A stretch of DNA of 33,558 nt from Deltaproteobacteria bacterium CG_4_9_14_3_um_filter_63_12 (GTDB lineage Bacteria; Myxococcota_A; Bradymonadia; UBA4248; UM-FILTER-63-12). The notes beneath the pieces were generated by a model. That model was not told where the DNA came from, searched no databases, and was given only the letters and a program-made list of their open reading frames with translations. The stretch covers positions 1 through 33,558 of the forward strand of contig PFUG01000114.1 in NCBI GenBank assembly GCA_002789955.1, read 5' to 3'. The translations under genes were made by a program, and so were the position numbers. Shown here in pieces: positions 2,744-21,464 of this stretch; the stretch's first letter is position 1; the number at the start of each line of letters is the position of its first letter.

Positions 2744-3559
2744 TCAGCTTCGCTCCGAGGTCGCCTCCTCGAGTTCCCGCTCGAACGCTTCGAGTCTGGA
2801 GTCGTTGGAGCCGACCACCGACTCGGCTTCGAGCACGGCGTCTTCGGCGATCTGCATTTCGCTCAGCAGGTCGTCGAGCTGGGTCGAGACGCTCTGCGGG
2901 TTGCGCATGGTGAGCGAGGACTCGTGGATGAGCTTGAGCGTGTCCTCGATGGTAGCGAGTTGGTTGCGGATGATCGAGCCATTGTCGCGTACGAGGCGCA
3001 TGCGCTCCAGGCGCTTGACCAGGACCTCATAGCGCTCTTCGAGGCTGCGTTTGACGCGGGAAGAGGCGCTCTTGATTTCCTGCTCAACGCCAGCGATCTC
3101 TCGCACCAAGGCGCCCTCGTTCACGGTGTTCATCAGCGTGCGGTAGTTGTGTTCGGCCTCGCACAACCCTAAGTAGCGCTCTTGGAATGCCCCCAGACGG
3201 CTCTCGACGCCAGAGAGCATGTTTTCGGGGTCGTCGGTGAGGTTGGCGCGGGTGTTCTCGATGAGGTTCATCACCTGCTCGAGGCGAGCCCGTCGATCCA
3301 GTGGCAGCTTCTCTACGCGGGACTCCAACTTCTTGCGTTCGTTGTCGGCCTCTATGGCGCGGTACTTGTTTTCCACGGAGCGCTGAAAGACCTCCGTGCC
3401 TGGAACCATGGCGAGGTAGATCATCTCGACGCCGGCGGCGAGGGTGAGTGGCATCGCGCTCCACATCACGACGCTGAGCAGCATCAGGAAGGCCAAGAAA
3501 ATGAGGTTGTATTGGTAGGTGACCGCTTCGAGGGTGTAGTTTCTTTCTGGTTTCGCCAC
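2744..3559 (-). CDS. Membrane-anchored coiled-coil protein, last gene of ABC operon
   Basis: The protein is about 271 residues with no recognised family. The N-terminal part has two hydrophobic segments (roughly residues 15-35 and 38-55, FLAFLMLLSVVMWSAMPLTL and following), likely a membrane hairpin. The remaining 200 residues are charged, Glu/Arg/Leu-rich and strongly helical, with long heptad-like coiled-coil stretches. The GTG start at 3559 is preferred because GAGG lies 6 nt upstream; an ATG at 3610 would add 17 residues without a ribosome site. It lies about 140 bp downstream of the ATPase gene on the same strand, so it may be the fifth gene of the ABC operon. The topology suggests a cytoplasmic or periplasmic coiled-coil scaffold on the inner membrane. 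Function unknown. Confidence 0.7.
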   Translation of the reverse strand: MAKPERNYTLEAVTYQYNLIFLAFLMLLSVVMWSAMPLTLAAGVEMIYLAMVPGTEVFQRSVENKYRAIEADNERKKLESRVEKLPLDRRARLEQVMNLIENTRANLTDDPENMLSGVESRLGAFQERYLGLCEAEHNYRTLMNTVNEGALVREIAGVEQEIKSASSRVKRSLEERYEVLVKRLERMRLVRDNGSIIRNQLATIEDTLKLIHESSLTMRNPQSVSTQLDDLLSEMQIAEDAVLEAESVVGSNDSRLEAFERELEEATSERS

Positions 3560-3702
3560 CGCGTGCCTCGTCGAATTCTGGTGCTGGCCGTGTGTTCTGG
3601 TGCGGTTCATGCCAGCGAGTCGTGCCAGCCAGCCAAGAAGACTGTCATTTGGAGCAAGAAACAGTTCTTACGTCAGATCGGGGGAGGTCGTCAAAATGGA
3701 AA

Positions 3703-4767
3703 TCAAATGGACAGCTTGACCTCGGCGCCCTTCGCGACCGAGGCCGAGAGTTCGTGGATGCGCTCGATGAGTTGCCCTTCGTAGCGGCGAAAGAGCGAAG
3801 AGCTCTTGACCTTTTGCTCCCTGGGGTAATCGAGCTTGATGGGGATCTCGTCGGCGATGCGGCCCGGGCTCGGGGTGAAGACCGAGACGCGATCGGCCAG
3901 ATAGACGGCCTCTGAGATGTCGTGAGTGACAAAAAGGATCGTCGCCTCTTCCTGATGCCAAATGTTGAGGAGCAGGTCCTGCATGTCCATGCGGGTGTTG
4001 ATGTCCAACGCGCCGAAGGGCTCGTCCATGAGGATGATCTGCGGTGAGACGGCCAGGGTCCTGGCGATGGCGACACGCTGCCGCATGCCGCCCGAGAGTT
4101 CCTTGGGGTACTTTTTGCCGTGTCCCGAGAGGCCTACGCGCTCGAGGAGCTGGTTGCGGCGCTCACGGCGCTGAGCAGCGGGAGTGCCTTGCACTTTCAT
4201 GCCGTATTCGACGTTCTGCGAGACCGTGAGCCACGGCATGGAGGAGTAGTTCTGAAAGACCATACCCCGGTCGGGTCCGGGCCCCCTGACGGGCTCGCCG
4301 TTGACCAGCACTTCGCCGGTGGTGGCTTCGGTGAGGCCCGCGATCAGGCTCAAGACCGTTGACTTGCCACAGCCGGAGGGCCCCAAGATGGAGAGGAACT
4401 CGCCCACCGCGGGCAAGTCTTCGATGACAATGTCCACGTCGCGAATGGCCTGGAAGGTCACGCCTTCGCCGTCAACGTAGCTCTTGGAGGCTTTGGCGAG
4501 CTTGACGATGGGTTGTTTGGGGAGGCTGACCTCGACCTTGTTGGCTCGGCCTGCGCCGACCTTCACGGGCACAGACTGCGGAACGTAGCCCTTGCAGGTG
4601 AGCTCGAGTGTGTGGTCACCGGCCGGGATCGCAGCGCCCACGAAGGCGTCGCCGCGCAGTGTCAGTTTCTGCCCGGCGACGGTGACGCTCACTGCCGAGA
4701 GATCCTTGCATCGATCGAGGGTGACCGCTACTGCCAGCTCACCGCTCTCTTTCTTCTCGTCGCTCAT
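3703..4767 (-). CDS. NitT/TauT-type ABC ATPase with N-terminal PEGA-like domain
   Basis: This is the ATP-hydrolysing subunit of an ABC importer, 354 residues against about 260 for the family. The ATPase part carries Walker A GPSGCGKST (129-137), a Q-loop in MVFQNYSSMPW (Gln172), signature LSGGMRQR (from 224), Walker B ILMDEP (245-250) and the switch His282. FQ-x-x-x-x-(L/M)PW and DEPFGALD are typical of nitrate/taurine/aliphatic-sulfonate ATPases. Residues about 8-83 are an extra small beta domain with the PEGA pattern (IPAGDHTLELTCKGY, then valine-rich strands and an aG-x-x-n-x-v-x-v-x-L end). This domain usually lies outside the cytoplasm, so its presence on a cytoplasmic ATPase is odd. The gene lies 29 bp downstream of the permease gene, in the same operon. 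Confidence 0.9.
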   Translation of the reverse strand: MSDEKKESGELAVAVTLDRCKDLSAVSVTVAGQKLTLRGDAFVGAAIPAGDHTLELTCKGYVPQSVPVKVGAGRANKVEVSLPKQPIVKLAKASKSYVDGEGVTFQAIRDVDIVIEDLPAVGEFLSILGPSGCGKSTVLSLIAGLTEATTGEVLVNGEPVRGPGPDRGMVFQNYSSMPWLTVSQNVEYGMKVQGTPAAQRRERRNQLLERVGLSGHGKKYPKELSGGMRQRVAIARTLAVSPQIILMDEPFGALDINTRMDMQDLLLNIWHQEEATILFVTHDISEAVYLADRVSVFTPSPGRIADEIPIKLDYPREQKVKSSSLFRRYEGQLIERIHELSASVAKGAEVKLSI

Positions 4768-4796
4768 CTTAACCTACTGCACCAGAGGTGGGCATC

Positions 4797-5594
4797 TTAG
4801 GACCGGTCGTACCAAGGGAAGAGCGTGGCGCCGAGCCAGCGCATGAGCATGTCGACCAGAACACCGATGAAGAGGATCAAGGCCACCGCGACGAGCACAT
4901 CGGAGAGGGTCCCGAAGCGCCTCAGTTGGTTCATCAGGTAGCCGACTCCAGGGTAGCCTAGGCCGTCCTGGTCGGTGGTCTGCATGAACTCCGCGAGCAT
5001 GACATAGGTCCAGCCGATGCCGAACATCACGCGCAGCGCGTCGAAGATGGCGGGAAGGCAGGCCGGCAACAGGATCGTGGTGATCTGCTTGACCGGCCCA
5101 GCTCCTAGGGTTTGGGCGATCTTGAGATAGACGTCGTCGACCTGATCGACGGTCTCCACCACGAGCGGCAGGAGGTAGACGAAGGTCCCGAGGAACAACA
5201 GCGAGATCTTCATGGTCTCGCCCAGCTCGAACCAGAAGATGAACACCGGAATGATCGCCGCGATGGGTAGGTAGCGCAGCGGAGAGAGGATCGGATTGAG
5301 CGCCGCACGCACCGACGAGAACGCGCCCATGGCGATGCCCACAGGAATGGCAACCACGGCGGCCGCGATGAACCCGAGGGTGATGCGCAACAGGCTCGTG
5401 AGGGCGTTCGCGATCAGATAGTTCTCGTAGTGCAGCTTCTTGGCCGAGGCTGCGAGCGCACCGGGCCCTGGCAGGATCATGGGGTTCACCCCCAGGACTT
5501 CGGTGGCGAGCAACCACGCCATCGCCAGCAGTCCGCAGGAGATCAGACCGATGGTGTACCGCTTCTTGGCGGTGATTTTGCGACGAAGTATCAC
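4797..5594 (-). CDS. ABC transporter permease, SsuC/TauC-like
   Basis: This is the inner-membrane permease of the binding-protein-dependent importer. It is about 265 residues with six likely membrane helices, and it has the cytoplasmic EAA-type loop in AQTLGAGPVKQITTILLPAC (invariant Gly, then LPAxLPAIF), which docks on the ATPase. The family is the BPD_transp_1 group of nitrate/sulfonate/taurine permeases. A TTG at 5642 would extend the frame by 16 residues, but that extension is translated from a perfect GGGGGGAC/GTCCCCCC hairpin (5613-5636). It reads like repeat DNA, so I prefer the GTG at 5594. It lies between the binding protein and the ATPase in the operon. Confidence 0.88.
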   Translation of the reverse strand: MILRRKITAKKRYTIGLISCGLLAMAWLLATEVLGVNPMILPGPGALAASAKKLHYENYLIANALTSLLRITLGFIAAAVVAIPVGIAMGAFSSVRAALNPILSPLRYLPIAAIIPVFIFWFELGETMKISLLFLGTFVYLLPLVVETVDQVDDVYLKIAQTLGAGPVKQITTILLPACLPAIFDALRVMFGIGWTYVMLAEFMQTTDQDGLGYPGVGYLMNQLRRFGTLSDVLVAVALILFIGVLVDMLMRWLGATLFPWYDRS

Positions 5595-5612
5595 AGCGCG
5601 ACCCTGTTCGTA

Positions 5613-5636
5613 GGGGGGACTTTTCAGTGTCCCCCC
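5613..5636. repeat. Perfect 8-bp-arm hairpin between binding protein and permease genes
   Basis: GGGGGGAC (5613-5620) and GTCCCCCC (5629-5636) enclose an 8-nt loop. It lies inside the operon, between the stop at 5712 and the preferred permease start at 5594. It could set relative expression (binding protein above permease) by stabilising the upstream transcript end, or it may be a copy of a dispersed repeat. Confidence 0.55.
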
Positions 5637-5711
5637 GGTCAACTCGCCGCCATGGATGGCGGAGAATTAGGTAAACCCGAAGGGTTGCGCGCAAGAAGCG
5701 CGCGACGCCTT

Positions 5712-7409
5712 CTATTGGCGGAGGATGTCGAAGTCCGTGCGGCGGTTCTGCTTACGTCCCTCTTCGTCCTTGTTGTCGGCGATGGGATTGTCAGGACCGG
5801 CGCCGACGACGACGAACTTCTCGGCGGGGAAGCCGTGCTTCTGCACGAGGTAGTTGACGACCGACTGGGCGCGCTTCTGGGAGAGCGTGACGTTGGCGGC
5901 GCGCTTGCCCTTGTCGTCGGTGTTGCCGACGACACGCATCTGCAGGCTACCGAAGGTCTGAGCCAGCGAGGCGGCCTCGTCGAGGATGAACTTCGCGTTT
6001 TCGTCGAGCTCGTAGGCTCCGGACGGAAAGTAGACGGACATCCGCTTGGTGAGGATGGCCTCTTTCTTCTCGGCGGCCTTCTGCTCTTCGGGGCTGAAGT
6101 CGAATTTGAACTCTTTGGTCGGTGCAGGAGCCTCTTGTTCGGCCGCGGCGACGACGTCGTCCTTCTTGAAGCGCACCTCGGCCTCGGGCTTGATGGCCTT
6201 GAGGAAGGTGGTGTCGAAGGTGCTGCTGGCGTCGCCGCGGCCGGAGATCTTGCCGAGGCTGCGCCAGAGCTTGGTGGCCTCGTTGAAGATGTCCGAGTAG
6301 CCGCGCAGCTGGTCGCCGGTGACCTCGAAGAAGGCAAGGTTTTCGTAGTAGTTGGGCAGCTTCACGTCGCCCAACATCGCCTCGGCGACCACGGCGTCGA
6401 CGCCCTCAAAGCCGTTGGCCATGAGCTGGATGGTGGGTTTGGGATCTTTGGCGACCTGCTCGACCCCATCGAGCCAGCCGAGAGTGAACTTGGCGAGGAG
6501 CTCGGGGTGTTGTTTCGCGAAGTCACCGCGCACCATGAAGATGTCGGCGATGAGCGCCGAGGCCTCCTTGGTGGAGGCTAGGATGTGTCCGCCCTCGCGT
6601 CCCTCGGCGGCCATGTAGACATCGGGAGACCAGCTGACGGCGGCGTCGACCTTGCCGAGCTTGAAGAGCTGAGCGGCCTCGATGGCCGACTCGGTAAAGG
6701 CCCAAGAGACCTGGTCGGTCTTCAGATCGGCCTGGCTCAACAAGTAGAGAGCGAAGTAGTGGCTGGGTGTGCCCTCGGCGACGGCGATGCGTTTGCCGGC
6801 GAGCTGGCTCACGGCGGTGATCTCTTTGGTCACCGCGATGGCGTCTCCGCCGCGAGACCAGTCGTACTGCATGAAGGCCAGTGGGTTGAGGTCCTTGAGG
6901 GAGTCATACTCCAGCGCGAAGGAGTCGACGGTCCCCCAGACGATGTCGACGCCGCCGTCGCCGCCACCCTTGCGGAAGGCCGCACGGCTGGCCGGGTAGT
7001 CGTCGATGACCTTGAGCTCGACCTCCACGCCGTACTCTTTCCAGAAGGTGGAGTCCTTGCTGGCCGCGAAGCCGTTGTTTGCCATGATTCCGCCCGCATA
7101 GCCACCCCAAGTGACGATGCCGACGCGGATCGGACGATTGATGCCAGGTGTCGAGCCGCTGCTGCCGCCCTTCTCGATGTTGGGTTTGGCCGCCTCAATC
7201 TTGTCGCCATTGAAGTCGGGAACCTTGGTCGGAGCTGGGGTGTCGTTGTCCGCCGAGGCGGCCTCGATGCCCTTGTTGTCGAACTCGGGCTCGACGCTGG
7301 GTTCCGCTCCCTTCTTGGGGATCACTTGCCAGATCACGACCCCAAGGATGGCTAGACCCAACACGACCATCACCAATTTGCCGCCAGTATTGATTCTTAC
7401 TTTTGCCAT
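5712..7409 (-). CDS. Membrane-anchored ABC substrate-binding protein fused to OmpA domain
   Basis: The protein has 565 residues in three parts. An N-terminal uncleaved-looking helix (about residues 10-32, LVMVVLGLAILGVVIWQV) follows a short basic stretch and should anchor it in the inner membrane. After an Ala/Pro/Asp linker, residues about 95-400 form a NMT1/TauA-like periplasmic binding domain (RVGIVTWGGYAGG, KRIAVAEGTPSHYF, a VDAAVSWSPDVYMA segment). After a charged linker, residues about 455-565 form an OmpA C-terminal domain with GNTDDKG, LSQKRAQSVVNYL and NRRTDF, the region that binds diaminopimelate in peptidoglycan. Such fusions exist in databases as substrate-binding/OmpA family proteins. 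The substrate is unknown. The gene starts 7 bp after the preceding gene's stop, so the two are probably translationally linked. Confidence 0.9.
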   Translation of the reverse strand: MAKVRINTGGKLVMVVLGLAILGVVIWQVIPKKGAEPSVEPEFDNKGIEAASADNDTPAPTKVPDFNGDKIEAAKPNIEKGGSSGSTPGINRPIRVGIVTWGGYAGGIMANNGFAASKDSTFWKEYGVEVELKVIDDYPASRAAFRKGGGDGGVDIVWGTVDSFALEYDSLKDLNPLAFMQYDWSRGGDAIAVTKEITAVSQLAGKRIAVAEGTPSHYFALYLLSQADLKTDQVSWAFTESAIEAAQLFKLGKVDAAVSWSPDVYMAAEGREGGHILASTKEASALIADIFMVRGDFAKQHPELLAKFTLGWLDGVEQVAKDPKPTIQLMANGFEGVDAVVAEAMLGDVKLPNYYENLAFFEVTGDQLRGYSDIFNEATKLWRSLGKISGRGDASSTFDTTFLKAIKPEAEVRFKKDDVVAAAEQEAPAPTKEFKFDFSPEEQKAAEKKEAILTKRMSVYFPSGAYELDENAKFILDEAASLAQTFGSLQMRVVGNTDDKGKRAANVTLSQKRAQSVVNYLVQKHGFPAEKFVVVGAGPDNPIADNKDEEGRKQNRRTDFDILRQ

Positions 7410-7416
7410 GTTTCGC

Positions 7417-8154
7417 TCAATCCGTCGTGATGGGGTTCGCGTGTTCTTCGACCAAAATCGAGACGGTGTTGTAGAGCCGCATCTCTTCCTGTCGTTTCAC
7501 CACCAACCACTGATCGAAATCGTTTTGCTTCTGCTGCAGGAGCGCCCGGTTGTCCGACATCTCCTTGCGCTTCTCTTCCAAGAAGAGGGCGATCTCCTCT
7601 TCGATCTCGGTGTTGCGGGTCTTGATGTCGTGCTCGGCCACGTCGAGCTCGGCGCGGAGCAGCTCTTCGGTTTGGTCCAGCGCGTTGTCCCGCGAGATGG
7701 CGTCTTGGATCACGCCCTCTATGGACACCTGGTTGGCCTCGAGGGCGACCAGGATGGACGCCTTTTTGACCTGTCTGCCGAGGCCCTGAAGGTATTTGCT
7801 GTCCAGCAGACGCTCGACATGGAAGACGTGGAATCCCTCGTCCGTGGAGGTCGGCAAGGCGTGGGAGGTGTAGATCTCGTCTGGAGAAGGGAGCGTGCCA
7901 GTCTCCATTGCCCCATCGAACATGGAGCCCAGGTCCGCAGTTTGGTTTTCGTCGAGCCGTCCCGCCTTGAAGTCGACGTCGAGGTCGCGAACTCGTCGAG
8001 GTTCGACCTCACGGCCCACGGGGCCTTCTTCGGCGCGTGCCAGTGCCGCCTCTGCGGCGACCTCTGGGTTCTTGTCGGCGGCCTGCTTGGGAACTTTCGC
8101 CCCCGCCTCGGGCTCGACGGTGACAAACCAGTTCAGCATCTTCTTCATGCTCAT
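7417..8154 (-). CDS. Soluble coiled-coil protein, first gene of ABC operon
   Basis: The protein is 245 residues with no recognised family and no signal peptide or membrane segment. The N-terminal third is Ala/Glu/Pro-rich and probably flexible. The C-terminal half (about residues 120-235) is a long charged helix with EELLRAELDVAEHDIKTR and EEEIALFLEEKRKEMSDN, likely a coiled coil. AAGGGG lies about 8 nt upstream of the ATG at 8154. Its stop is 7 bp before the binding-protein gene, which ties it to the transport operon. A cytoplasmic partner of the ATPase or of the operon's other coiled-coil protein is possible but unproven. Confidence 0.7.
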   Translation of the reverse strand: MSMKKMLNWFVTVEPEAGAKVPKQAADKNPEVAAEAALARAEEGPVGREVEPRRVRDLDVDFKAGRLDENQTADLGSMFDGAMETGTLPSPDEIYTSHALPTSTDEGFHVFHVERLLDSKYLQGLGRQVKKASILVALEANQVSIEGVIQDAISRDNALDQTEELLRAELDVAEHDIKTRNTEIEEEIALFLEEKRKEMSDNRALLQQKQNDFDQWLVVKRQEEMRLYNTVSILVEEHANPITTD

Positions 8155-8356: not shown

Positions 8357-9196
8357 TCATGGGCAGGGCTTCACGGTGATTTCGGCGTCCAGCGTGTCCG
8401 CCCCGTAGGCGTAGGCGAGTCGCACCTCGTACCAGTGGTCTTTCTCGATGAAGATCGGCTCCTTCAGAAAGATCACTTCGGGGTTGTAGAGAAATCGAGT
8501 GCGCTCGGTGACGAGCCCCTCGGTCAAAAACGCCCGGCTGGTGATGACCACCGCGTCCGCGCTCTGCGATTTGCGCGCCAGCACCCTCACCGTCGAGTCC
8601 ACCTGTTCGGCCTGGTCGGGTGACATCAGGTCGATCACGTCGTAGCGGGCGCGGGTCGAGACGGTCTCGTCGTTGGCCAACAACATAGACCGGCTGTCGA
8701 CGTCGATCTGCACGCCGTAGAGCTCCTCTTGGGCGTCGAGCAGCTGCACGAAGGACTCGACCCGACGAGGAATGACCTGGGCCTGCGGCTTGAAGAACTG
8801 GCGCAGGTGGTTCACCACCTGCACTTCCGGCTCGAAGAACTGGCCCGTGCAGAGCAGCTCACAGATCAGCAAGTCGATCTCGTGGTTCAGCTGCACGGCC
8901 GTCGCGTCAGCGTGGACGACCTTGATCTTGTCGGCGACGCCGTTGCGCGCGGCGAGGTTCTCGATCAGCTTGCAGAATCGTGGATGCAGCTCGATCGAGG
9001 TGACCTTCTCGGCGCCGTCCAACGCCGCGAACACGCCGAGGATCCCCGTTCCCGCGCCAGCATCCACCACGCGATCGCCCGGACGCACGACGTCCTCGAT
9101 GGCCTCCTTCCAGAGCCTGGTCCGCTCCACGTCGTAGAGGCACAGCGAGATCTCGTAGGGCGTGAACTGCACCGATGTGCTCGGCTTCTCGGCCAT
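8357..9196 (-). CDS. PRMT-like SAM-dependent methyltransferase
   Basis: This is a class I SAM methyltransferase of 279 residues. Residues 21-70 follow the protein arginine methyltransferase core: YDxxRTxxWxxAI, motif I DAGAGTGILG (45-54) and post-I SIEL with Glu69. CELLCTGQFFE places Glu113 and Glu122 exactly nine residues apart, the spacing of the PRMT double-E loop. The C-terminal half is beta-rich, as in the PRMT barrel, but a canonical THW loop is not evident; DHWYEVRL near residue 250 is the nearest resemblance. The substrate could be a protein arginine or something else. The start is supported by GGGAGAGGAAG just upstream of the ATG. The gene lies 34 bp downstream of the radical SAM gene in the same direction, so the two likely form an operon. 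Confidence 0.75.
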   Translation of the reverse strand: MAEKPSTSVQFTPYEISLCLYDVERTRLWKEAIEDVVRPGDRVVDAGAGTGILGVFAALDGAEKVTSIELHPRFCKLIENLAARNGVADKIKVVHADATAVQLNHEIDLLICELLCTGQFFEPEVQVVNHLRQFFKPQAQVIPRRVESFVQLLDAQEELYGVQIDVDSRSMLLANDETVSTRARYDVIDLMSPDQAEQVDSTVRVLARKSQSADAVVITSRAFLTEGLVTERTRFLYNPEVIFLKEPIFIEKDHWYEVRLAYAYGADTLDAEITVKPCP

Positions 9197-9230
9197 CTTC
9201 CTCTCCCTGACTGGCGCACTCTGGGCTGGT

Positions 9231-10187
9231 TCAGCGAACCGACGTGTAACCCGACTCGTCGAAGAGCCGTTGCAGGTCTTGGTGGCGGTTGTAGGCGGTG
9301 AGCGCCGCGACGCAACGAACCCTGTCGACGCCCGTGTCCTGGAAGGTCCCGCCGCTGACCGCCATCCCCTCGTCGTCGAGTCCGACGTAGATGGGCAGCG
9401 AGCGGGCCGCGGCCGCCGCCACGACGTCGATGATGCTCGTCAGCTCCGGCGGCTGGTAGGCGTTGGCGAGCAGCTCGCTGGTCAGCGCGCAACCTTCGGC
9501 GATGTAGGTCGGATTGAGATGTATAGAGACCGGCACCTCGTACTCAGCTCCCAAGCCCCCCAGCTCGTCCAGCCCGTCGATCGCCTCGGAGATTCCCTGC
9601 TCTTCGCTCAGGCTGTGGTGGGGCTTGAGCATCAAGTACGCCTTAAGCGAGGCCTTGTTCGCCTGCAGCTTGACCATCAGCCGATGCAAGGTCTTGACCG
9701 ACAAACCCTTGCCCAGGACCTTGTTGCGCAGGTGCTCGTCGTGGGTCTCGTAGCCGATGCCCACCTCGAGCTCCACGCCCTCGCCCAGCACCGCGCCGAT
9801 GGCCTTGAGCTCCCAGTCCTCGACGTATTCCGGGCGAGTCTCCAGCGAGACGCGCCGCAACAGCGGCAGGTCGCTGAGCTTGAGGAGCAGATACATCAGG
9901 GAACGGGTCGGCAAGCAGACCTGATCCAAGGTCGATGCCGCCGTGTAGATCGACACTTTGGCGACGCGCTGCAGCTCGGCGGCTGGGGTTTCGGCCAGCA
10001 CGAAGTCGACTTGCCGCTCGATGTCTCGGGCCGTGACCCGCTCGCCCCCTTCGGACATGCTCGGCAGCGAGCAGAACGCGCAGCGTCCATAGCGGCAGGG
10101 CAGCGTGTAGAGCGCGAAGACCAGCTCGCGTCCTATGGTGCAGTCGACGTTCCAATGAAACAAAGGGCGCGCAGGGTCTCGCAGCAT
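9231..10187 (-). CDS. Radical SAM enzyme, CX4CX2C type (TIGR01210/RaSEA-like)
   Basis: This is a radical SAM protein of about 318 residues. The [4Fe-4S] ligands are Cys31, Cys36 and Cys39 in CRYGRCAFC, a CX4CX2C arrangement instead of the canonical CX3CX2C. That pattern and the overall layout (SLETRPEYV, VGIGYETHDEHLRNKVLGKG, LKAYLMLKPHHSL) resemble the Elp3-related group called TIGR01210, which includes the archaeal RaSEA enzyme of archaeosine synthesis. This placement is from memory of the families. The start at 10187 is chosen because AAGGAG lies 5-6 nt upstream; an open frame continues to 10259 but has no ribosome site. The reaction is unknown. It heads a probable two-gene operon with the PRMT-like methyltransferase. 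Confidence 0.8.
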   Translation of the reverse strand: MLRDPARPLFHWNVDCTIGRELVFALYTLPCRYGRCAFCSLPSMSEGGERVTARDIERQVDFVLAETPAAELQRVAKVSIYTAASTLDQVCLPTRSLMYLLLKLSDLPLLRRVSLETRPEYVEDWELKAIGAVLGEGVELEVGIGYETHDEHLRNKVLGKGLSVKTLHRLMVKLQANKASLKAYLMLKPHHSLSEEQGISEAIDGLDELGGLGAEYEVPVSIHLNPTYIAEGCALTSELLANAYQPPELTSIIDVVAAAAARSLPIYVGLDDEGMAVSGGTFQDTGVDRVRCVAALTAYNRHQDLQRLFDESGYTSVR

Positions 10188-10279
10188 TCCATCTCCTTGG
10201 GTCTCGGGACGTGAGGGCCGCGTTGTAGCACACTGTGGGACTCGAGGCGATGCGAGCACCCAACACGAGGAGGCCCACC

Positions 10280-11065
10280 ATGACGACTCCTGACGCGTGG
10301 AGTCCGGCGCAATACGAGCGTTTCAAGGCCCAGCGCAGCCAACCCTTTGCCGACCTCCTGGCGCGCCTCCCGTCCTGCGCGGGCCGGGTGGGGCTCGATT
10401 TGGGCTGCGGGACCGGCGAGCTGACGCGCATCGCCCACGACCGCCTCGGGTTGCAGCGCACGCTCGGCGTCGACCGCTCGGCGGCCATGCTCGAGCAAGC
10501 CGAGGCCTTTACGGGCCCAGGGCTGACTTTCGAGCGGCGCGACATAGAGTCGTTTCTGTTGGACTCGCCGGGGAGGTTCGGACTCGTGCTCTCCAACGCG
10601 GCGCTGCAATGGCTGCCCGACCACCCGACGCTCTTCCCGCGCGTGACCTCGCTGCTCGGCGAGGACGGTGTCCTCGCCGTGCAGATTCCCGCCAACCACG
10701 ACCACATCAGCCACGTGCTCGCCGCGCAGCTCGCCGCAGAGCCCGAGTTTGCCTCGGTTATCGGGGGCTGGACGCGGCAGAGCCCAGTGTTGGCGCTCGA
10801 GCGCTACGCCGAGCTGCTCTACGGGGCAGGGCTGCGGGAGCTCGACGTCTGGTGCCAGGTCTACCTGCACGAGCTGCCGAGCTGGCGCGCGGTGGTGGAG
10901 TGGGTGAAGGGGACGCTGCTGACGGCGTATCAGGAGCGGATGCCCGCTGCGCTGTTCGAGCGCTTTTTGGAGCTCTACACGCAACGACTGGAGTTTTTCT
11001 GCGAGGACACGAGCCCGTTTCTCTACCCGTTCAAGCGGTTCCTGATGGTGGGACGCCAGGCCTGA
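10280..11065 (+). CDS. tam: Trans-aconitate 2-methyltransferase-like protein
   Basis: This class I SAM methyltransferase is about 261 residues (E. coli Tam is about 252). Tam methylates trans-aconitate, an inhibitory by-product of the citrate cycle. It shows LDLGCGTGELT (motif I), LGVDRSAAMLEQA (motif II), LSNAALQWLPDHP (motif IV region) and VQIPANHDHISH, all close to Tam. The C-terminal W-x-x-V-V-E-W-V-K-G-T-L-L-T-A-Y segment is also characteristic. The ATG at 10280 follows GAGGAGG at good spacing; upstream ATGs lack this. The gene is divergent from the radical SAM operon, with fewer than 100 bp for two promoters. Related biotin-synthesis methyltransferases (BioC) are the main alternative. 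Confidence 0.85.
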   Translation: MTTPDAWSPAQYERFKAQRSQPFADLLARLPSCAGRVGLDLGCGTGELTRIAHDRLGLQRTLGVDRSAAMLEQAEAFTGPGLTFERRDIESFLLDSPGRFGLVLSNAALQWLPDHPTLFPRVTSLLGEDGVLAVQIPANHDHISHVLAAQLAAEPEFASVIGGWTRQSPVLALERYAELLYGAGLRELDVWCQVYLHELPSWRAVVEWVKGTLLTAYQERMPAALFERFLELYTQRLEFFCEDTSPFLYPFKRFLMVGRQA

Positions 11066-11072
11066 GACGACG

Positions 11073-11104
11073 AAGGCCCCTGCGCTGTGGAGCGCTGGGG
11101 CCTT
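11073..11104. terminator. Strong bidirectional hairpin terminator
   Basis: AAGGCCCC-T-GCGCT (11073-11086) pairs with AGCGC-T-GGGGCCTT (11091-11104), a stem of 13 pairs with one T-T mismatch and a 4-nt GTGG loop. It lies 8 bp after the tam stop and 24 bp from the stop of the opposing Cys-rich gene. It is followed by TTGTCTGTC on the plus side, so it can terminate both convergent units. Confidence 0.75.
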
Positions 11105-11127
11105 TGTCTGTCAATCGAGCCTAGTGG

Positions 11128-13500
11128 CTAGGGCAGTCGTGGGCACAGTAGGGCATCTTGGACGCAGATCGGGACGGACGAGGCCGGACCTGGGTCGCAG
11201 CAGAGCCACTGGTTGGTGCAGAAGGAACAGCTCGCGCAGTCGGTGCAGCCCTCGGCGATGCGAGTGGTCTCGCAATTTCCGTCGATGCAGACCTCATCTT
11301 CATTGCATCGTCGGTTGCAGCCACCGCAGTTGAGCGGATCCCAGTTGGTGTCGGTGCAGACGTTGTTGTTGCACGAGTCGTAAGGACACTGGCCAGCTGT
11401 GCAGACCCCGTCGACGCAGGATTCGTTGTTGGTGCAGGAGGCCCCGCAAGCTCCGCAGTTGGCGCGGGAGTTGAGGCTGTCGCAGGTCCCGTCGTTGTTG
11501 CAGTCGGCGGTTCCGAGCCGACATTCACACACACTGTTTGCGCAGTACTCGGTGTTGTCGCAGTTGGCTTGGCAGGTGCCGCAGTTGCGGGGGTCGTTGG
11601 CGAGGTCGACGCAGTTGTTGTTGAAGCCACAGGCATCGTAACCGCTGATGGAGCAACCGCAGACCCCTGAGGTGCAGACGCCGAGGGTGTTGTCGCAGTT
11701 GTTCTGGCAGGAGCCACAGTTGTTGAGGTCGGTGGAGACATCGACGCACAGGCCGTTGCAGGCGAGGAGCCCAGTCGGGCACTGGCATTGTCCGGAGACG
11801 CAGGTCGCGTCGAGAGGGCAGTCACGGCCGCAGGCGCCGCAGTTGGTGACGTCGGTGGAGAGGTCGGCGCAACCGCCGTTGCAGGCCACCTCGCCGGTCG
11901 GGCAGACACACGTCCCGCTGGTGCAGCTGGCGCCGGCGGGGCAGTCGTTGCCGCACGCCCCGCAGTGATCGATGCTCGTCGCCAAGTCGGCACAAGCCGT
12001 GCCGCAGTTCACGTCGCCCGTTGGGCATTCGCAGACGCCGCTGGTGCAGGAGGCGCCGGTGGGGCATTCGTTTCGACAGGCACCGCAATGGAGGACGTCA
12101 GAGGTCAGGTCGACGCAGACGCCGTTGCAGACTACCTGGCCGGTGGGGCAATCGGTGCAGGCTCCAGAGATGCAGCTCTGGCCGACGGCGCAGGAGGTGT
12201 TGCAGGCGCCGCAGAACTCGGGATCGGAGGAGAGGTCGGCGCAGCGAGCGCCCGTGCAGTTGACCATGCCGGTCGGGCAGACGCAGGCGGTAGTTCCAGC
12301 AGTGGTGCTGCAGAGCGCTCCAATGGCGCACTCGTTGTTGCACTGACCGCAGTTCGCTGGGTCGGCGGTGAGATCGACACAGGTGCCACCGCAGAGATCG
12401 GGGGCGGTCGTTGGGCAGGCGCAGGTTCCGGAAATACAGGCCGCGCCGTTGGCGCAGGCGGTGGTGCAGTTTCCGCAGTGGTCGACGTTGGAGGCCAGAT
12501 CGGCGCAGACGTCGGTGCAGGCCACCTCGCCGGGAGCACACTCGCAAATCCCACCGTTGCAGGCCGCGCCGGTCGGGCAGGCGTCGCCGCAAGCGCCGCA
12601 GTTGTCGAGGTTGCTGTCCAAATTGGCGCAGACGCCTGTGCAGTTGGTCATGCCGGCGGCACAGTCCGAGCACACACCCGAGATGCAGGTCGCTCCGACT
12701 GCACAGGCGTTTCCGCACTGTCCGCAGTTGTTCACGTCGTCGGCCAGAGTCGAGCAAGTGTCCGAGCAGGCCACCAGGCCGGGCGCGCAGGTGCAGATAC
12801 CAGAATCGCAGGTCGCCGTCGGGGCGCAGGCGTTGTTGCAGCTGCCGCAATTCGCCAGGTCGGTCGAGAGGTCGGCGCAGCTGCCGGCACACGCCACGGT
12901 TCCGGTGGTGCAGGTGCAGACGCCGTTGTCGCAGGTCCCAGAGGTCGGGCAGCCGTTGCCGCAAGAGCCGCAGTTCGCAGTGTCGGTGAGGGTGTCCGCG
13001 CAAACGCCATTGCAGAGGAGCTGTCCCGTTGCGCAGGAACAGACCCCGCCGCTACAGGTGCCGCCGCTACAGCCAGCGCCACAAGAGCCGCAGTTCGCGG
13101 TGTCCGTCAGAAGATCGACGCAGGTGCCCGAGCACGCGTTTTCACCGCTTGGGCAAGAGAGCTCGCAGACGCCAGCGACACAGCTCTCGTCGGCAGCACA
13201 GGCGGTGACGCAGGTCCCGCAGTGCAGCGCGTCGGTGTCCAAGTTGGCGCACACACCGCTGCAGTCCGTCTCAGGGGTGGCACATTGGGTCGTGTCCACC
13301 GTGACGTCGCTGCCGGTGCCGTCATCAGAGGTGTCGACGTCCACCGTGACGTCGCTGCCGGTGCCGTCATCAGAGATGTCGACGTGAATGACATCGGCCT
13401 GGTTGTTGTTGGAGGTGCTGTCGTCACAGCTGGCGACCAGCAGCGCGGTCATCAGCGAGACAGCCAGCATGAGGCGTCTTCTCAGTACAGTGTTTTCCAT
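11128..13500 (-). CDS. Large Cys-rich lipoprotein with 16 Stig1-type repeats
   Basis: The protein is about 790 residues. The ATG at 13500 has GGAGA 6 nt upstream and starts a lipoprotein signal (LRRRLMLAVSLMTALL, then lipobox VASC). An in-frame ATG at 13638 adds 46 residues without a signal. After an acidic Asp/Thr/Val linker that includes two near-identical 15-residue units, the rest is a tandem array of about 35-40-residue modules. Each has the frame C-x-G-x-C-(V/A)-D-L-x-(T/S)-D-x-x-(N/H)-C-G-x-C-x-x-x-C. I count 16 NCGxC/HCGxC cores. This matches the Stig1/CXXGC repeat proteins common in Myxococcota; all the Cys residues are probably disulfide-bonded. It is likely surface-exposed, with an adhesive or structural role by inference. 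A short distinct C-terminal Cys-rich cap follows the last repeat. Confidence 0.85.
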   Translation of the reverse strand: MENTVLRRRLMLAVSLMTALLVASCDDSTSNNNQADVIHVDISDDGTGSDVTVDVDTSDDGTGSDVTVDTTQCATPETDCSGVCANLDTDALHCGTCVTACAADESCVAGVCELSCPSGENACSGTCVDLLTDTANCGSCGAGCSGGTCSGGVCSCATGQLLCNGVCADTLTDTANCGSCGNGCPTSGTCDNGVCTCTTGTVACAGSCADLSTDLANCGSCNNACAPTATCDSGICTCAPGLVACSDTCSTLADDVNNCGQCGNACAVGATCISGVCSDCAAGMTNCTGVCANLDSNLDNCGACGDACPTGAACNGGICECAPGEVACTDVCADLASNVDHCGNCTTACANGAACISGTCACPTTAPDLCGGTCVDLTADPANCGQCNNECAIGALCSTTAGTTACVCPTGMVNCTGARCADLSSDPEFCGACNTSCAVGQSCISGACTDCPTGQVVCNGVCVDLTSDVLHCGACRNECPTGASCTSGVCECPTGDVNCGTACADLATSIDHCGACGNDCPAGASCTSGTCVCPTGEVACNGGCADLSTDVTNCGACGRDCPLDATCVSGQCQCPTGLLACNGLCVDVSTDLNNCGSCQNNCDNTLGVCTSGVCGCSISGYDACGFNNNCVDLANDPRNCGTCQANCDNTEYCANSVCECRLGTADCNNDGTCDSLNSRANCGACGASCTNNESCVDGVCTAGQCPYDSCNNNVCTDTNWDPLNCGGCNRRCNEDEVCIDGNCETTRIAEGCTDCASCSFCTNQWLCCDPGPASSVPICVQDALLCPRLP
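13295..13384. repeat. Two-copy 45-bp tandem repeat in lipoprotein linker
   Basis: Units 13295-13339 and 13340-13384 are identical except for one base near the end (G at 13331, A at 13376). They encode the doubled acidic Ser/Asp/Gly/Thr linker directly after the lipidation site of the Cys-rich lipoprotein. The near identity points to a recent duplication or active copy-number variation. Because the unit is 45 bp (15 codons), changes in copy number keep the reading frame. Confidence 0.9.
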
Positions 13501-13861
13501 GTTGATTCTCCGGGTGTGGGCGCTGAACGAGGCGAAGACAGTGTTCTCTGCCGCATTGGGATTCTGATGATCACACGCTCCAAGGGTATGGGGCAAAGGC
13601 CGTGGATACAAACGCTCGAGACGATTCTCCGTACTCAAGACGAGTCCACTGCGACAATACTACTCTTCGTGTCAATCATGGAAGCCAAGTCAGGATGCGT
13701 TTCTTCGCCGATTGGGGTGTACGCTCGAAATGTTGCGGTGTGCATACCCGACCCAATCGGGGGAGCCGTCCCTGTTGACAGCCCGTCCGAGGTCGAGTTT
13801 CCTGTGGGTCTTCGCGCTCCAACCCATCCCCTCGACCTCTCCCTTTGAGGAGTGTTCGGCC
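13501..13861. other. Intergenic region between divergent lipoprotein and response regulator genes
   Basis: This region of about 360 bp must hold promoters for both divergent genes. Open frames run through it on both strands, but they lack domain content and ribosome sites, so I do not call them. A TTGACA on the minus strand near 13675 could be a -35 element, but no good -10 lies 16-18 nt from it. GAGGAG at about 13847-13852 is the ribosome site for the TTG start at 13862. Confidence 0.4.
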
Positions 13862-14257
13862 TTGTGTTCTGCAGCACGACCAAGACTGCTGATCGTCGAC
13901 GACGAGCCCGACATGCTTCGCATGATCACCTTCGTGCTCGAGAAGGAGGGGTTTGACGTTGAGACCGTCGAGAGTGGCGAGGCGGCGATCCGACGGTTCG
14001 GTGAGCAAGGCTTCGACTTGGTGCTCACCGATTTGAAGATGCCTGGACTCGATGGCTTCTCGACCTTGCGGGCCCTGCGCGCCATCGACCCCGCCCTCAA
14101 GGTCATCATCGCGACCGGCTACGCTTCCAAGGAGACCGGCGACTCCTGTCGGAGAGCCGGCGCCTTCGGCCTCATCCTCAAGCCTTTCGAGCTCACCGAT
14201 CTTCTCGCGATGCTCAACCGAGCGCTGACGAGTCCAGTCGAAGACGCACGCCGCTGA
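13862..14257 (+). CDS. Single-domain response regulator (receiver only)
   Basis: This CheY-like receiver of about 131 residues has no output domain. Acidic pocket Asp13/Asp14 lies in LLIVDDEP, the phospho-acceptor is Asp57 in LVLTDLKMPGLDG, the switch residue is Thr85 in IIATGYA, and conserved Lys107 lies in LKPFE. The TTG start at 13862 is preferred, with GAGGAG about 9 nt upstream; an ATG at 13712 would add 50 residues of non-receiver sequence that look like intergenic translation. It may be phosphorylated by the soluble histidine kinase about 1.7 kb downstream, which has no receiver of its own. Two unrelated genes lie between them, so this pairing is inference. Confidence 0.88.
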   Translation: MCSAARPRLLIVDDEPDMLRMITFVLEKEGFDVETVESGEAAIRRFGEQGFDLVLTDLKMPGLDGFSTLRALRAIDPALKVIIATGYASKETGDSCRRAGAFGLILKPFELTDLLAMLNRALTSPVEDARR

Positions 14258-14299
14258 GCAATCGCGAGCGGACTCGCTTCGGGCCCGCGCGAATGCCGC

Positions 14300-15139
14300 T
14301 CAGGAGAAGATCTTGGACAGCGCCTGCAGTCCGAACCCTTCTTTTTCCACCCGCAGCTCGTGGTAGACCGTAGTCATGATCGCGCCGCTGCCGCCGGCCA
14401 GGATCACCGCCGCCACACACCAAGCGGCCAGCTTTGCCCCGACGCCGACGCTGCGACTGAGGTCCTCGATGAGCACGACCGGGAGCAGGAAGACCAGCGA
14501 GATGCAGCTCAGGACGACCACCGTCGAGACGAGCACCGCCAAGACGCCAAGACGATTGCCCTTGCTCAACTCCAGGCTGCGTTTGACGGACTGTGTGAAG
14601 GAGACCCGCTCCACGACCGCCACGTAGGGGGCCAAGCAGACGCTGACGAAGATCGGCGCGATCAAGATCATCGAGGTGATCACGGCAAACGCCACCAAGA
14701 TGTCTCGGCGGCTGGCGGGCATCTTCGCGCCGACTTCGTACGCCAACACTGGGGCCACCGACAAAAAGGCGAGCATCGAGGCGAGCAAGGCGCTCGCCGC
14801 CAACACCGGCCGCAGGGTTGCTCCGAACCGCGACATCGAACGGCCTAAGCTCAGCTCGAGCCCGTCAAGCTTGTCAAAGACCATCGGCGCGCTTACGACG
14901 CCGACGAGTAAGAGCATGAAGCCCAGGCCGCTGATGGCACCGGCCAGCGGCCAGCTGCCGTGCAGCGGACCGGCAAGGCCGAGGTTGAACAGCACGACAC
15001 AGGGCACGAGGCAGACGGCGCCAACAAGGCTGAGCGTAACGACGCTCTGCGCCCAAACTTCCAGACCGCGCCCGAGGGCGGCACCCGATTTGAACGGCTG
15101 ACGGAGCATGCTCGAACCGTTATCACAGGTCGGGGGCAT
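14300..15139 (-). CDS. Polytopic membrane protein, function unknown
   Basis: The protein is about 279 residues with roughly six hydrophobic segments, for example VVTLSLVGAVCLVPCVVLF, ISGLGFMLLLVGVVSAPMVF, ILVAFAVITSMILIAPIFV and LGVLAVLVSTVVVLSCISLV. The layout (an amphipathic start KSGAALGRGLEVW, APYVAVVERVSFTQSVKRSLEL in the middle, a final YHELRVEKEG near the C-terminus) resembles the glycerophosphodiester phosphodiesterase-type membrane domain or YciC-like proteins with the pattern Y-x-x-L-R. The ATG at 15139 has AAAGG upstream; an ATG at 15109 (MLRQPF) is also plausible. The gene is convergent with the response regulator and divergent from the DUF99 gene. Confidence 0.7.
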   Translation of the reverse strand: MPPTCDNGSSMLRQPFKSGAALGRGLEVWAQSVVTLSLVGAVCLVPCVVLFNLGLAGPLHGSWPLAGAISGLGFMLLLVGVVSAPMVFDKLDGLELSLGRSMSRFGATLRPVLAASALLASMLAFLSVAPVLAYEVGAKMPASRRDILVAFAVITSMILIAPIFVSVCLAPYVAVVERVSFTQSVKRSLELSKGNRLGVLAVLVSTVVVLSCISLVFLLPVVLIEDLSRSVGVGAKLAAWCVAAVILAGGSGAIMTTVYHELRVEKEGFGLQALSKIFS

Positions 15140-15186
15140 TGAGCGACCTTTGTCGGCGCTCCGATGTCGGCGCCTAGGATGAACGC

Positions 15187-15768
15187 ATGGGCCTCAAAGA
15201 ACAGCTTCGCAACAACCGCCTCATTCGCGTTATCGGCATCGATGACACGCCGTTCTCCGTCGCGGACGAGCGGGTCAACGTCGCTGGGGTCGTGTGCGCT
15301 CGCACGCGTTTCGAAGGGATGCTCTGGACGAATATCGCGCGCGATGGCTGGGACGCGACCAGCGCCTTGGTCGAAGTGCTGAAACGGAGCAAGTTTCTGG
15401 CCCAGCTGCACCTGCTGTTGCTCGACGGCGTGGCCATGGGGGGCTTCAACGTGGTCGACCTCGAGGCGCTCGCCCAACAGCTCGACTTGCCGTGTGTCAC
15501 CGTGATGCGCAAGTTGCCCAACCTCGACGCCATGCGCGCGGCGATGGACAACCTCCCGGACGCGGACCGCCGCTGGGAGCGCTTGCTGCGCGCGGGCCCC
15601 ATTCACTGCCACCCACCGTACTACTTCCAGGTCGTTGGCGAGGCTCCACAGCTCATGCTCGCCGCGCTCAAGGTTCTGACCGACCGGGGGAACGTGCCCG
15701 AGGCGCTGCGTCTGGCCCATCTGATTGGCGCTGCCGTGCAACAAGGAGAGAGCGGCCGTCGGGCTTGA
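15187..15768 (+). CDS. DUF99 family protein (endonuclease V-like fold)
   Basis: The protein is 193 residues. VIGIDDTPF near the N-terminus, the GVV-C/A-R segment, DGWDATSALVEVLKRSK, LLLDGVAMGGFNVVDLEAL and PCVTVMRKLPNLDAM match the DUF99 family in order and spacing. The family is related in fold to endonuclease V, with conserved acidic residues (Asp19/Asp20 and the Asp of LLLDG), but no activity has been firmly assigned to my knowledge. It is best known from archaea, so a bacterial copy is less usual. The start at 15187 is the first ATG and fits the family N-terminus. It stands alone between a divergent membrane protein and the histidine kinase. Confidence 0.85.
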   Translation: MGLKEQLRNNRLIRVIGIDDTPFSVADERVNVAGVVCARTRFEGMLWTNIARDGWDATSALVEVLKRSKFLAQLHLLLLDGVAMGGFNVVDLEALAQQLDLPCVTVMRKLPNLDAMRAAMDNLPDADRRWERLLRAGPIHCHPPYYFQVVGEAPQLMLAALKVLTDRGNVPEALRLAHLIGAAVQQGESGRRA

Positions 15769-15903
15769 GCCTTATTCCTCAAATCAGTGGACGAACGACG
15801 CTCTTTCCCCGATAGATGAAGGTTCAAGCAATCGCTCTCGTAGCTGCGGTGTGTAATCGGCCGTGCTCGACTGAGTATTCGCGCGCAACGCATCAATCAT
15901 TCG

Positions 15904-17478
15904 GTGAGTTCAGCGGTGTCTGCCCACGATCAAGACAATCCCTCGCTCGTCGACGCTCCACTGGACGACGAGACGCGACTCGAGCGGATCGCCGCCCTCG
16001 AAGCGCAGAACGACGCGCTCGAGGCGCAGGTCGAAGACCTCATCGCGACTGAGCAGAGGCTTTTTCGTTCTCAGCACGAGCTCGATCGCCAACTGTGCCG
16101 CATCAACGCCATCAATCAGTTTGCGCTCGACGCGGCGATGGCCTTCGAGCCTAGGCAGATTCTAGAGCACGCGTTGTCGACCCTGCTCAACGTGCTCAAT
16201 CTCGACCAAGGCATTGGGTTGCTCGCCGTCAACGAGGGCGGGCTCGAGGTCGCCTGTGTCAAGAGCAAGGCTGGGCTCGAGGCAACGGGAGTCGCAGACC
16301 AGCGCGACGCCGAGTTCCCTTGCTCCCTCGCGCCGGAAGCCGTGCGCGTGCGACCAAGGGCAACGATCCTCGAGCCAGAACCAGATTGGAACGAGCGTCC
16401 AGGCAGCGACGAGGCCCTGCAGCGCATCCTCGAGACCTTTGACCAGGCTTTCCCCGTTCCCGTTTCCGAACATCACGACGTCTTCGTCTACCTGCCGCTG
16501 CTCGGGTTGCGTGGCGGGGAGCTCATGGCCGTCCTGCTGGCGCGGGAGGTTGGCTCGAGCTCACGCTTCGAGTACGCCCGCGAAGACACGGATCGGCCCT
16601 TTCTCGAACTCCTCAGAGGCCATCTCGAGGGCAGCCTCGAGGCGGCCGTCCTCCACGAACGTGTGTCCAACTTCGCCGTCGTACTCGAGCAGCGGGTCGA
16701 GCAGCGCACCCACGACCTGGTTCAGCTCAACCGCGAGCTCGAAGAGAGCCTGACCGAGCTGCGCGAGACCCAAGGTCAACTCTTCCAGGCGGGTAAGATG
16801 GCGGCCATCGGCACCTTGGTCGCCGGAATCTCCCACGAGCTCAACACCCCTCTCAGCATCATCATGGGCTACGCCCAGACCTTACTGAAGACGGCCGACG
16901 CGAGTCACGAGCTGCGCGAGGTCTTCAAGGTCATCGAGCGCCAGGCCAGGCGCTGCAGTGATCTTGTCGAGTCACTCCTCGATCTCTCCCGACATGGCAG
17001 CGACACGCGGACTCACATCTCCGCGGAGGGTATCCTCAACCACGTCGCCGAGATCGCGCGCACCGCCACTCGAGGGACTTCGGTCGAGCTCATCGTTTGC
17101 ACGCCTGAGGAGGGCTTGCCGATGCTCAAGGTCAACGGCACCGAGCTCCAGTCCGCCCTCCTCAACATCGTCAACAACGCCATCGACGCCACCGCGCCGC
17201 TCGGGACAGTGACCCTCGAGGCCTGCGCCGCCACCGTCGGGGAAGAGAACGGAGTCCAGTTTGTCGTGACGGATACGGGCACGGGTGTCCCGGAGGAACT
17301 CCAGTCGTTCGTCTTCGACCCCTTTTTCACGACCAAACCCGTTGGCGCGGGGACTGGCCTGGGCCTGGCCATCACTCGCCGCATCGTCGAAGCCCACAGC
17401 GGGCAGATCGAGCTGCAGAGTTCCCCCAATGGAACCACCATCTCCATCTGGATCCCGCTCGAGTACCCCGACCTCTGA
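15904..17478 (+). CDS. Soluble sensor histidine kinase with GAF-like domain
   Basis: The protein is 524 residues with a GTG start at 15904. There are no membrane segments. Residues about 20-65 are a coiled coil (AALEAQNDALEAQVEDL), about 70-250 a GAF-like sensory domain (NAINQFALDAAMAFEPRQIL onward), and about 255-297 a second coiled coil with VEQRTHDLVQLNRELEES. The H-box GISHELNTPLSI has phospho-acceptor His311. The catalytic domain has N-box NIVNNAIDAT (Asn425), G1 DTGTGVP, F-box FDPFFTTKP and G2 GTGLGLAI. It should autophosphorylate and pass phosphate to a separate receiver. The single-domain regulator at 13862 is the nearest candidate. The signal is unknown; GAF domains usually bind small ligands. 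Confidence 0.92.
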   Translation: MSSAVSAHDQDNPSLVDAPLDDETRLERIAALEAQNDALEAQVEDLIATEQRLFRSQHELDRQLCRINAINQFALDAAMAFEPRQILEHALSTLLNVLNLDQGIGLLAVNEGGLEVACVKSKAGLEATGVADQRDAEFPCSLAPEAVRVRPRATILEPEPDWNERPGSDEALQRILETFDQAFPVPVSEHHDVFVYLPLLGLRGGELMAVLLAREVGSSSRFEYAREDTDRPFLELLRGHLEGSLEAAVLHERVSNFAVVLEQRVEQRTHDLVQLNRELEESLTELRETQGQLFQAGKMAAIGTLVAGISHELNTPLSIIMGYAQTLLKTADASHELREVFKVIERQARRCSDLVESLLDLSRHGSDTRTHISAEGILNHVAEIARTATRGTSVELIVCTPEEGLPMLKVNGTELQSALLNIVNNAIDATAPLGTVTLEACAATVGEENGVQFVVTDTGTGVPEELQSFVFDPFFTTKPVGAGTGLGLAITRRIVEAHSGQIELQSSPNGTTISIWIPLEYPDL

Positions 17479-17872
17479 CATTTTGATCAGGCGGGTGAGA
17501 AGCGCGCTTCGCGCGTCACTTGCTCGCCCCTGAGCTCGAGAGCGCGCAGGCCCTCGTCGTTGGCCGTCGGCCTGCGACAGAGAGTAGCCAATGTTGGGGT
17601 AGGGCTTGTCCATCGCGCGCAGGCACGTCAGCGGTCTCGCGTCGAGACTGCTCGGTGCCGAGTAACGCGCGAATCCCCGATCGAGAGCTCCTGCCTCCTC
17701 TAGGCCGCATGCCGCAATGCCCGAGCCACAACTCCGCAAGTCCTCATGCCCTGCGGTAGAGCGACACGCACCCGGGGATCGCCCGCGTAGTGCCCGAGAG
17801 GCACGGTGCTTGCTCACAGCGCTTGCTGATAGCTCGAGCACCTCCTCCTCCTCCACCACTCCCGAGGCCACC
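17479..17872. other. Intergenic region after the histidine kinase gene
   Basis: There is no supported gene. Open frames cross it but show no domain, signal or ribosome site. A weak hairpin lies at about 17495-17519 (GTGA, CGCGC, loop TTC, GCGCG, TCAC, with a bulge) shortly after the kinase stop; it could be a terminator but lacks a U-tract. The end of the region (17865-17868, GAGG) is the ribosome site for the next gene. Confidence 0.4.
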
Positions 17873-19696: not shown

Positions 19697-20146
19697 CTAC
19701 TCGGTCGTCACCGGCTCCTGACTCCCGTCGAGGGCCGCCTTCATCGTGTGCCAACACAGAATCGCGCACTTGATTCGCGTCGGATACTCCGACACCCCAC
19801 CAAAGACCTTCAACTTCCCCAACGACTTATCGACCTCGCCGGCCGAGCCGTGGGTGATCAGGTCGTGAAAGCTCTCAAAGAGCTTCTGCGCGTCCTCCTC
19901 GCTCTTGCCCAAGAGCGTCTCGGTCATCACCGAGGCGGACGCCGTCGAGATGGCGCAGCCCATACCATCGAAGCGCACCGCCGCGATCTTGCCGTCCTCG
20001 ACGCGCAGGGTGATCTTCACCTTGTCGCCGCAGAGGGGATTGGTGCCGTCTGCGAAGCGGTTGGCGTCTTCCAGCACGCCGAAGTTGCGGGGGTTGCGGT
20101 TGTGGTCGAGGATCACCTCTTGGTAGAGTTCTCTGAATTCAGACAT
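19697..20146 (-). CDS. sufU: SufU iron-sulfur assembly protein
   Basis: The protein is 149 residues. It is a Zn-dependent sulfurtransferase that takes persulfide sulfur from SufS and hands it to the SufBCD scaffold; the family is IscU-like. Metal/sulfur ligands are Cys39 and Asp41 in NPLCGDKV, Cys64 in GMGCAIS and Cys127 in RIKCAILCWHT. The 60-odd residues between the second and third Cys include the insertion that separates SufU from IscU. It is the last gene of the suf operon. Its ATG shares one base with the sufS stop (TGATG), and a GAGGTG ribosome site lies inside sufS, so translation is probably coupled. Confidence 0.94.
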   Translation of the reverse strand: MSEFRELYQEVILDHNRNPRNFGVLEDANRFADGTNPLCGDKVKITLRVEDGKIAAVRFDGMGCAISTASASVMTETLLGKSEEDAQKLFESFHDLITHGSAGEVDKSLGKLKVFGGVSEYPTRIKCAILCWHTMKAALDGSQEPVTTE

Positions 20147-21405: not shown

Positions 21406-21423
21406 CGGAAGGTCTCTCAATCG

Positions 21424-21464
21424 AACCCCCCCTCTCGTTTCGGGAGGGGGTTGGGGGGAGGGGG
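21424..21464. repeat. Hairpin and G-run element inside suf operon
   Basis: AACCCCC...TCTCG pairs with CGGGAGGGGGTT (21424-21452, with a bulge and one wobble). On the plus strand it runs on as four G-tracts separated by one or two bases (42-44, 46-50, 53-58 and 60-64 of the 21400s), which fits the G-quadruplex pattern. It lies between the sufD stop and the sufS start. The layout resembles dispersed CCCTCTC...GGGAGAGGGTTGGGG elements known from many GC-rich genomes. Confidence 0.65.

Follow-up and report, generated by a model that had tools for sequence, protein, structure and literature searches.

A five-gene ABC importer locus with a putatively wall-tethered binding protein as a reduced form of a conserved gene set

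In the window, meaning the whole stretch of 33,558 nucleotides analysed here (Deltaproteobacteria bacterium CG_4_9_14_3_um_filter_63_12, contig PFUG01000114.1), the genes of a nitrate/taurine-type ABC importer lie between the genes of two coiled-coil proteins. The locus raises the question whether these five genes belong together and, if so, what an importer may do with such partners. An earlier note on this DNA took them for a fixed transport complex bridging membrane and cell wall.

The five genes and the anchored binding protein

The five open reading frames are co-directional, all on the minus strand, and their coordinates agree with those in the earlier note. From the first gene to the last, the features are as follows.

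7417 to 8154, minus strand: CC1, 245 aa, a predicted cytoplasmic coiled coil of a family that has no name
5712 to 7409, minus strand: SBP/OmpA, with a membrane helix (residues 12-30), a NitT/TauT/SsuA-type solute-binding domain (about 92-430) and an OmpA peptidoglycan-binding domain (460-556)
5638 to 5712, no strand assigned: stretch with a dispersed REP-like repeat of about 66 bp, between SBP/OmpA and the permease gene; best inverted copy in the window at 22803-22868
4797 to 5593, minus strand: ABC permease, TauC/SaoP-like; likely start GTG 5593, the open reading frame reaching 5642
3703 to 4767, minus strand: ABC ATPase with intact Walker A (GPSGCGKST), signature (LSGGMRQR) and Walker B (ILMDEP) motifs
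4513 to 4767, minus strand: N-terminal extension of the ATPase, about 85 aa, PEGA/CarboxypepD_reg-like, no counterpart having been seen in close relatives
2744 to 3559, minus strand: CC2, a membrane hairpin followed by a helical cytoplasmic domain of about 200 aa; likely start GTG 3559, the open reading frame reaching 3610

The intergenic gaps of 7, 118, 29 and 143 bp are correct given the GTG starts of the permease and CC2, both of which agree with the N-termini of homologues; if the longest open reading frames are used instead, two of the gaps become 69 and 92 bp. The gap between SBP/OmpA and the permease is wide because the dispersed repeat sits inside it. At least 41 copies of this stem-forming repeat are present in the genome (40 of 186 candidates scored), the best other copies being 82-90% identical; in the window it lies at 5638-5712 and 22803-22868, and it has no Rfam match. 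Promoter and terminator scans stayed at chance level, and a scan with Rfam gave nothing. Elsewhere in the window, an 836-aa predicted lipoprotein with cysteine-rich repeats of about 41 aa (DNA period 123 bp) is encoded at 11128-13638 on the minus strand, and translations alone point to an apparent SUF iron-sulfur cluster operon (SufB, SufC, SufD, SufS-like) at 20146-25271, also on the minus strand.

All three transporter parts clearly belong to the NitT/TauT family, as had been proposed. Above the Pfam gathering cut-offs, SBP/OmpA matched OmpA (PF00691, E=8e-21), Phosphonate-bd (PF12974, 1e-9) and NMT1 (PF09084, 1e-8), the permease BPD_transp_1 (4e-17) and the ATPase ABC_tran (2e-29). With NCBIfam and Pfam together, the permease is TauC-like and the ATPase TauB-like with its motifs intact. 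In characterised systems of this family the binding protein is usually free or lipid-anchored, a feature that is typical and not strictly defining. SBP/OmpA departs from this form at both ends. Its hydropathy profile has a single strong hydrophobic segment, residues 12-30, in which an obvious cleavage motif is absent; next comes a linker of low complexity, then the binding domain and last the OmpA domain. Within the OmpA domain the binding-site Asp and Arg (D498 and R513) are conserved in 39/39 alignable loci, as expected of a working peptidoglycan-binding site. The claim that the binding protein is anchored at both ends is thus supported, and among the five proteins SBP/OmpA alone is predicted to span membrane and wall.

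The pocket of the binding domain contains D162, D183, D189, D263, D289, W101, W184 and W260, each at least 95% conserved over 40 aligned rows. In an alignment with TauA, the partners of D189 and D289 are chain residues 85 and 184, which with an offset of 21 are Glu106 and Asp205, acids that bind the amine of taurine and are required for tight binding (PMC6906117). The window protein therefore has acidic equivalents of both. Unlike TauA, it also has an invariant Asp, D162, near the position of Gly79, a sulfonate contact. A pocket with five conserved Asp and three Trp residues suggests a cationic ligand; from the aligned residues we infer a cationic or amine ligand, and probably not a sulfonate. 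Compared with the alkanesulfonate importers TauABC and SsuABC (NitT/TauT), the locus shares the families of binding protein, permease and ATPase, whereas its binding protein is predicted to be membrane-anchored and wall-binding, and its partner genes differ.

Recurrence of the gene set and the fuller operon

Homologous loci were obtained by querying related genomes with CC1, CC2 and SBP/OmpA, and were then scanned with family profiles. From the window's phylum 377 genomes were sampled, of which 18 were positive at E<=1e-60, and from the phylum of the Acidobacteria MAG 347, of which 28 were positive; a contig search with a single sequence, SBP/OmpA, returned three full-length relatives. The order CC1-SBP/OmpA-permease-ATPase-CC2 is found again in Myxococcota-like MAGs, in Acidobacteriota and, in part, in Cloacimonetes. 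The full order is present in the window and in L024, L025, L026, L035 and L084, as well as in L123, where ATPase and CC2 are about 1.9 kb apart. L027/L028 is consistent with the order and is split across contigs, and L029 is cut off where its contig stops. The Cloacimonetes MAG (L034) has CC1, PspA, SBP, permease and ATPase in order and no detectable CC2.

Fifty-one stretches with an SBP/OmpA gene were available for counting. The permease was found in 41 of them, the ATPase in 40, CC2 in 37, PspA in 31, CC1 in 29, an AAA+ ATPase in 26 and TerB in six, all of these being lower bounds since some stretches end at contig edges. By the earlier note, its idea would be refuted if the coiled-coil genes were missing beside SBP/OmpA in most other genomes with that gene. 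The opposite was observed: among loci that keep the ATPase, CC2 is present in 37/40 and CC1 in 26/40, and within each stretch the CC1 and CC2 profiles matched at the operon alone. SBP/OmpA stands alone in seven stretches, two of which (L071 and L136) are close to the end of a contig and possibly incomplete; the others, with neither permease nor ATPase, are L070 and L079-L082. In L079 a phosphodiesterase-family gene (PF01663) is located just downstream of the solitary gene on the same strand. Among recurring neighbours, no catabolic gene was found and no kinase or regulator was seen. The comparison supports the view that the five genes form a dedicated, conserved gene set.

Relatives in the window's phylum (L072-L078) and most Acidobacteriota loci have a fuller operon, (CC1-)PspA-SBP/OmpA-PERM-ATP-CC2-AAA+, with TerB next in six; the identities of PspA, of the two-domain AAA+ ATPase and of TerB were confirmed with Pfam on examples. 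Two Acidobacteriota loci (L135 and L137) have the permuted order PERM-ATP-CC2-AAA-CC1-PspA-SBP with unchanged content. A TerB-like open reading frame is also present in the window, at about 2314-2676 on the plus strand, convergent with CC2. It does not match the TerB profile of the operons, which end in a TerB gene in relatives, and it has a single weak Pfam match, so that together with the convergent strand its position is taken as coincidence.

A maximum-likelihood tree built from SBP, PERM and ATP in concatenation unites the window with L024-L028, three Acidobacteria loci and the Cloacimonetes locus in a clade of 100% UFBoot support, placed among PspA- and AAA+-containing operons. The AAA+ gene is absent from the operons of this clade, and PspA is mostly absent. 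The simplest reading of the tree would be a single loss of AAA+ from the operon and repeated loss of PspA, the latter because L034 retains PspA. PspA itself is missing from the window operon and encoded elsewhere in the window genome; it was found in 10/10 searched genomes of the clade, outside the operon in all except G377, whose PspA is the operon copy. For AAA+, also missing from the window operon, the clade's Acidobacteria and Cloacimonetes genomes have a two-domain relative (36-37% identity) outside the operon. Relocation of the orthologue within the window genome was considered and rejected: a search there found no two-domain orthologue, only generic AAA-region matches of 65 bits, and in the window's class such generic matches were all that was found. 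The five genes are thus a reduced form of a conserved, uncharacterised gene set. Since the operons of relatives hold PspA and AAA+, the likely meaning of the set shifts to envelope maintenance or stress.

Operons of this kind have been described by Ravi et al. 2024 (mSystems, PMC11237479), with PspA/Snf7, AAA+, ABC ATPase, permease and a PBPB+OmpA protein (example OGG56892.1), and it was proposed there that the OmpA domain holds peptidoglycan and PBPB binds the transported solute. As far as that description goes, the present locus is a variant of the same gene set and the mechanistic idea of the earlier note is close to theirs. Both operons encode an SBP+OmpA protein, the permease and ATPase of an ABC transporter and a helical protein that has a membrane segment, and the role proposed for the OmpA domain is the same. 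In contrast to the operons as described there, the window operon is without PspA and AAA+ and its ATPase has a PEGA-like extension; CC1 is absent from their operon description. What is new here is the form free of PspA and AAA+, the CC1 family, which has no name, the Asp/Trp pocket and the evidence that the PEGA-like ATPase domain may be restricted to the window genome. A literature search turned up one mention of the general type in print, but neither the slimmer five-gene form nor experimental work on any of its members.

A further cluster was observed on Vibrio plasmids (NZ_AP025146.1 and NZ_AP019851.1; L046, positions 8374-17745, and L047), with ATPase, SBP/OmpA, VWA, a second SBP/OmpA, TelA, a urea-type SBP and permease. 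As in the window's relatives, ABC genes and OmpA-fused binding proteins adjoin a helical stress-type protein, here TelA. However, identity of the SBP across the binding domain is only about 28%, PspA/CC1/CC2 give way to TelA and VWA, and the cluster is plasmid-borne. It appears to be a TelA-based parallel to the PspA-linked system.

Coiled-coil proteins and the ATPase extension

That the coiled-coil proteins themselves bridge the envelope, as the earlier note had it, is not supported by their sequences. CC1 has no membrane segment by hydropathy and no export segment. It combines a motif conserved at the N-terminus (xxxLxWFVTxE) with a small helical region and a helix of about 90 residues; in an AlphaFold2 model (4 sequences, pLDDT 69) the N-terminal half is of low confidence and the helix confident, and a fold search with the model gave no match above Z 5. 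CC2 has a hydrophobic N-terminal stretch (hydropathy peak at 36-54, about 36-70 by eye) which reads as a hairpin, and basic flanks on both sides would place its C-terminal coiled-coil domain in the cytoplasm. Both proteins are therefore predicted to be cytoplasmic.

The model of CC2 (2 sequences, pLDDT 75) is a helical bundle. A BAR-like fold was considered for it and rejected, since BAR-like structures and designed helical bundles were both matched at Z 9-12, and matches of helical bundles are trusted from about 13 upwards. No ESCRT-III structure was among those listed for this low-depth model. Homology of CC1 or CC2 to the PspA of the operons was likewise rejected, as profile-profile comparison shows no similarity. 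Scattered coiled-coil noise was all that Pfam returned over all members of both families, and the search of solved structures with their profiles gave weak coiled-coil noise only. CC2 occupies the position of the Snf7 homologue and has a membrane hairpin; it has no Snf7/PspA profile match, and its 2-sequence model is too weak for a verdict on the fold. From its position, CC2 is likely the 'Snf7 homologue with a TM segment' in the operon description of Ravi et al. 2024 (PMC11237479). With no profile similarity to PspA and no ESCRT-III structure listed, a remodelling role for CC1 and CC2 rests on gene context.

The similarity of the ATPase extension to the PEGA domain is weak, at scores below cut-off: PEGA PF08308 reached 17.4 bits against a cut-off of 20.8, other beta-sandwich families score equally, and the region scanned alone gave E=0.0043 for PEGA and 0.0008 for CarboxypepD_reg, both below cut-off. 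The PEGA-like domain is not a family feature. Before Walker A there are 130 residues in the window ATPase, compared with 67-80 in the close relatives with a frame-limited start (L024, L025, L028 and L034), which is evidence that the domain may be local to the window genome.

Possible functions of the gene set

The reading we prefer, by a modest degree of confidence, is that a NitT/TauT-type ABC importer module may have become part of an envelope-maintenance system together with CC1 and CC2. The binding protein, pinned to the wall, would be held next to the permease and would deliver a small, probably cationic, ligand or report its presence. CC2 would be held against the membrane from inside via its hairpin, CC1 would dock there via its N-terminal segment, and the two would couple the work of the transporter to the shape or integrity of the membrane. 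In fuller operons this task is thought to be done by PspA and AAA+; in the window lineage both would have gone from the operon, with PspA encoded elsewhere in the genome. The sequences show the gene content and order, their conservation and the integrity of the domains. The joint complex, the topology of CC1 and CC2, the link from ATPase cycling to membrane state and the direction of action are all inferred, as is the 'fixed transport complex' of the earlier note, and SBP/OmpA genes also occur solitarily. A bolder version seems unlikely to us: CC1 and CC2 would be new membrane-scaffold families replacing PspA and AAA+, and the five-gene set, with its wall-tethered, cation-binding ABC module, would alone maintain or reshape the inner membrane, as a counterpart, driven by an ABC ATPase, to the ESCRT-III-like machinery of PspA.

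BceAB-type systems are ABC sensors, and by analogy the locus might detect a ligand or the spacing of wall and membrane and signal via CC1/CC2, joined in relatives by PspA/AAA+, while net transport would be slight. We regard such a sensor as possible but less likely than the preferred reading. It would fit the double anchoring of the binding protein, the solitary SBP/OmpA genes lacking a transporter, and neighbours which are PspA, AAA+ and TerB and not catabolic enzymes. However, permease and ATPase are kept in 40/51 stretches, and kinases and regulators were not seen among the recurring genes. It seems unlikely that the locus encodes an ordinary nutrient importer, in which the wall-tethered binding protein is incidental and the coiled-coil neighbours are structural accessories: the family assignment of the three transporter parts agrees with it, but no recurring catabolic gene adjoins, CC2 is present in 37/40 ATPase-bearing loci and PspA/AAA+ in many. 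That five unrelated genes are neighbours by chance, for which the gene spacing of a single window is all that speaks, is refuted by the recurrence of order and content across phyla even though the operon proteins have diverged to about 20-50% identity.

The finding bears on operons that join ABC import to PspA-type membrane remodelling, which recur in Acidobacteriota and Myxococcota-like genomes and for which an assigned function was not found in the literature. The five-gene form marks the minimal core that is kept once PspA and AAA+ leave, namely CC1, SBP/OmpA, permease, ATPase and CC2, and the cationic-ligand hypothesis is concrete and open to a test with a single soluble domain.
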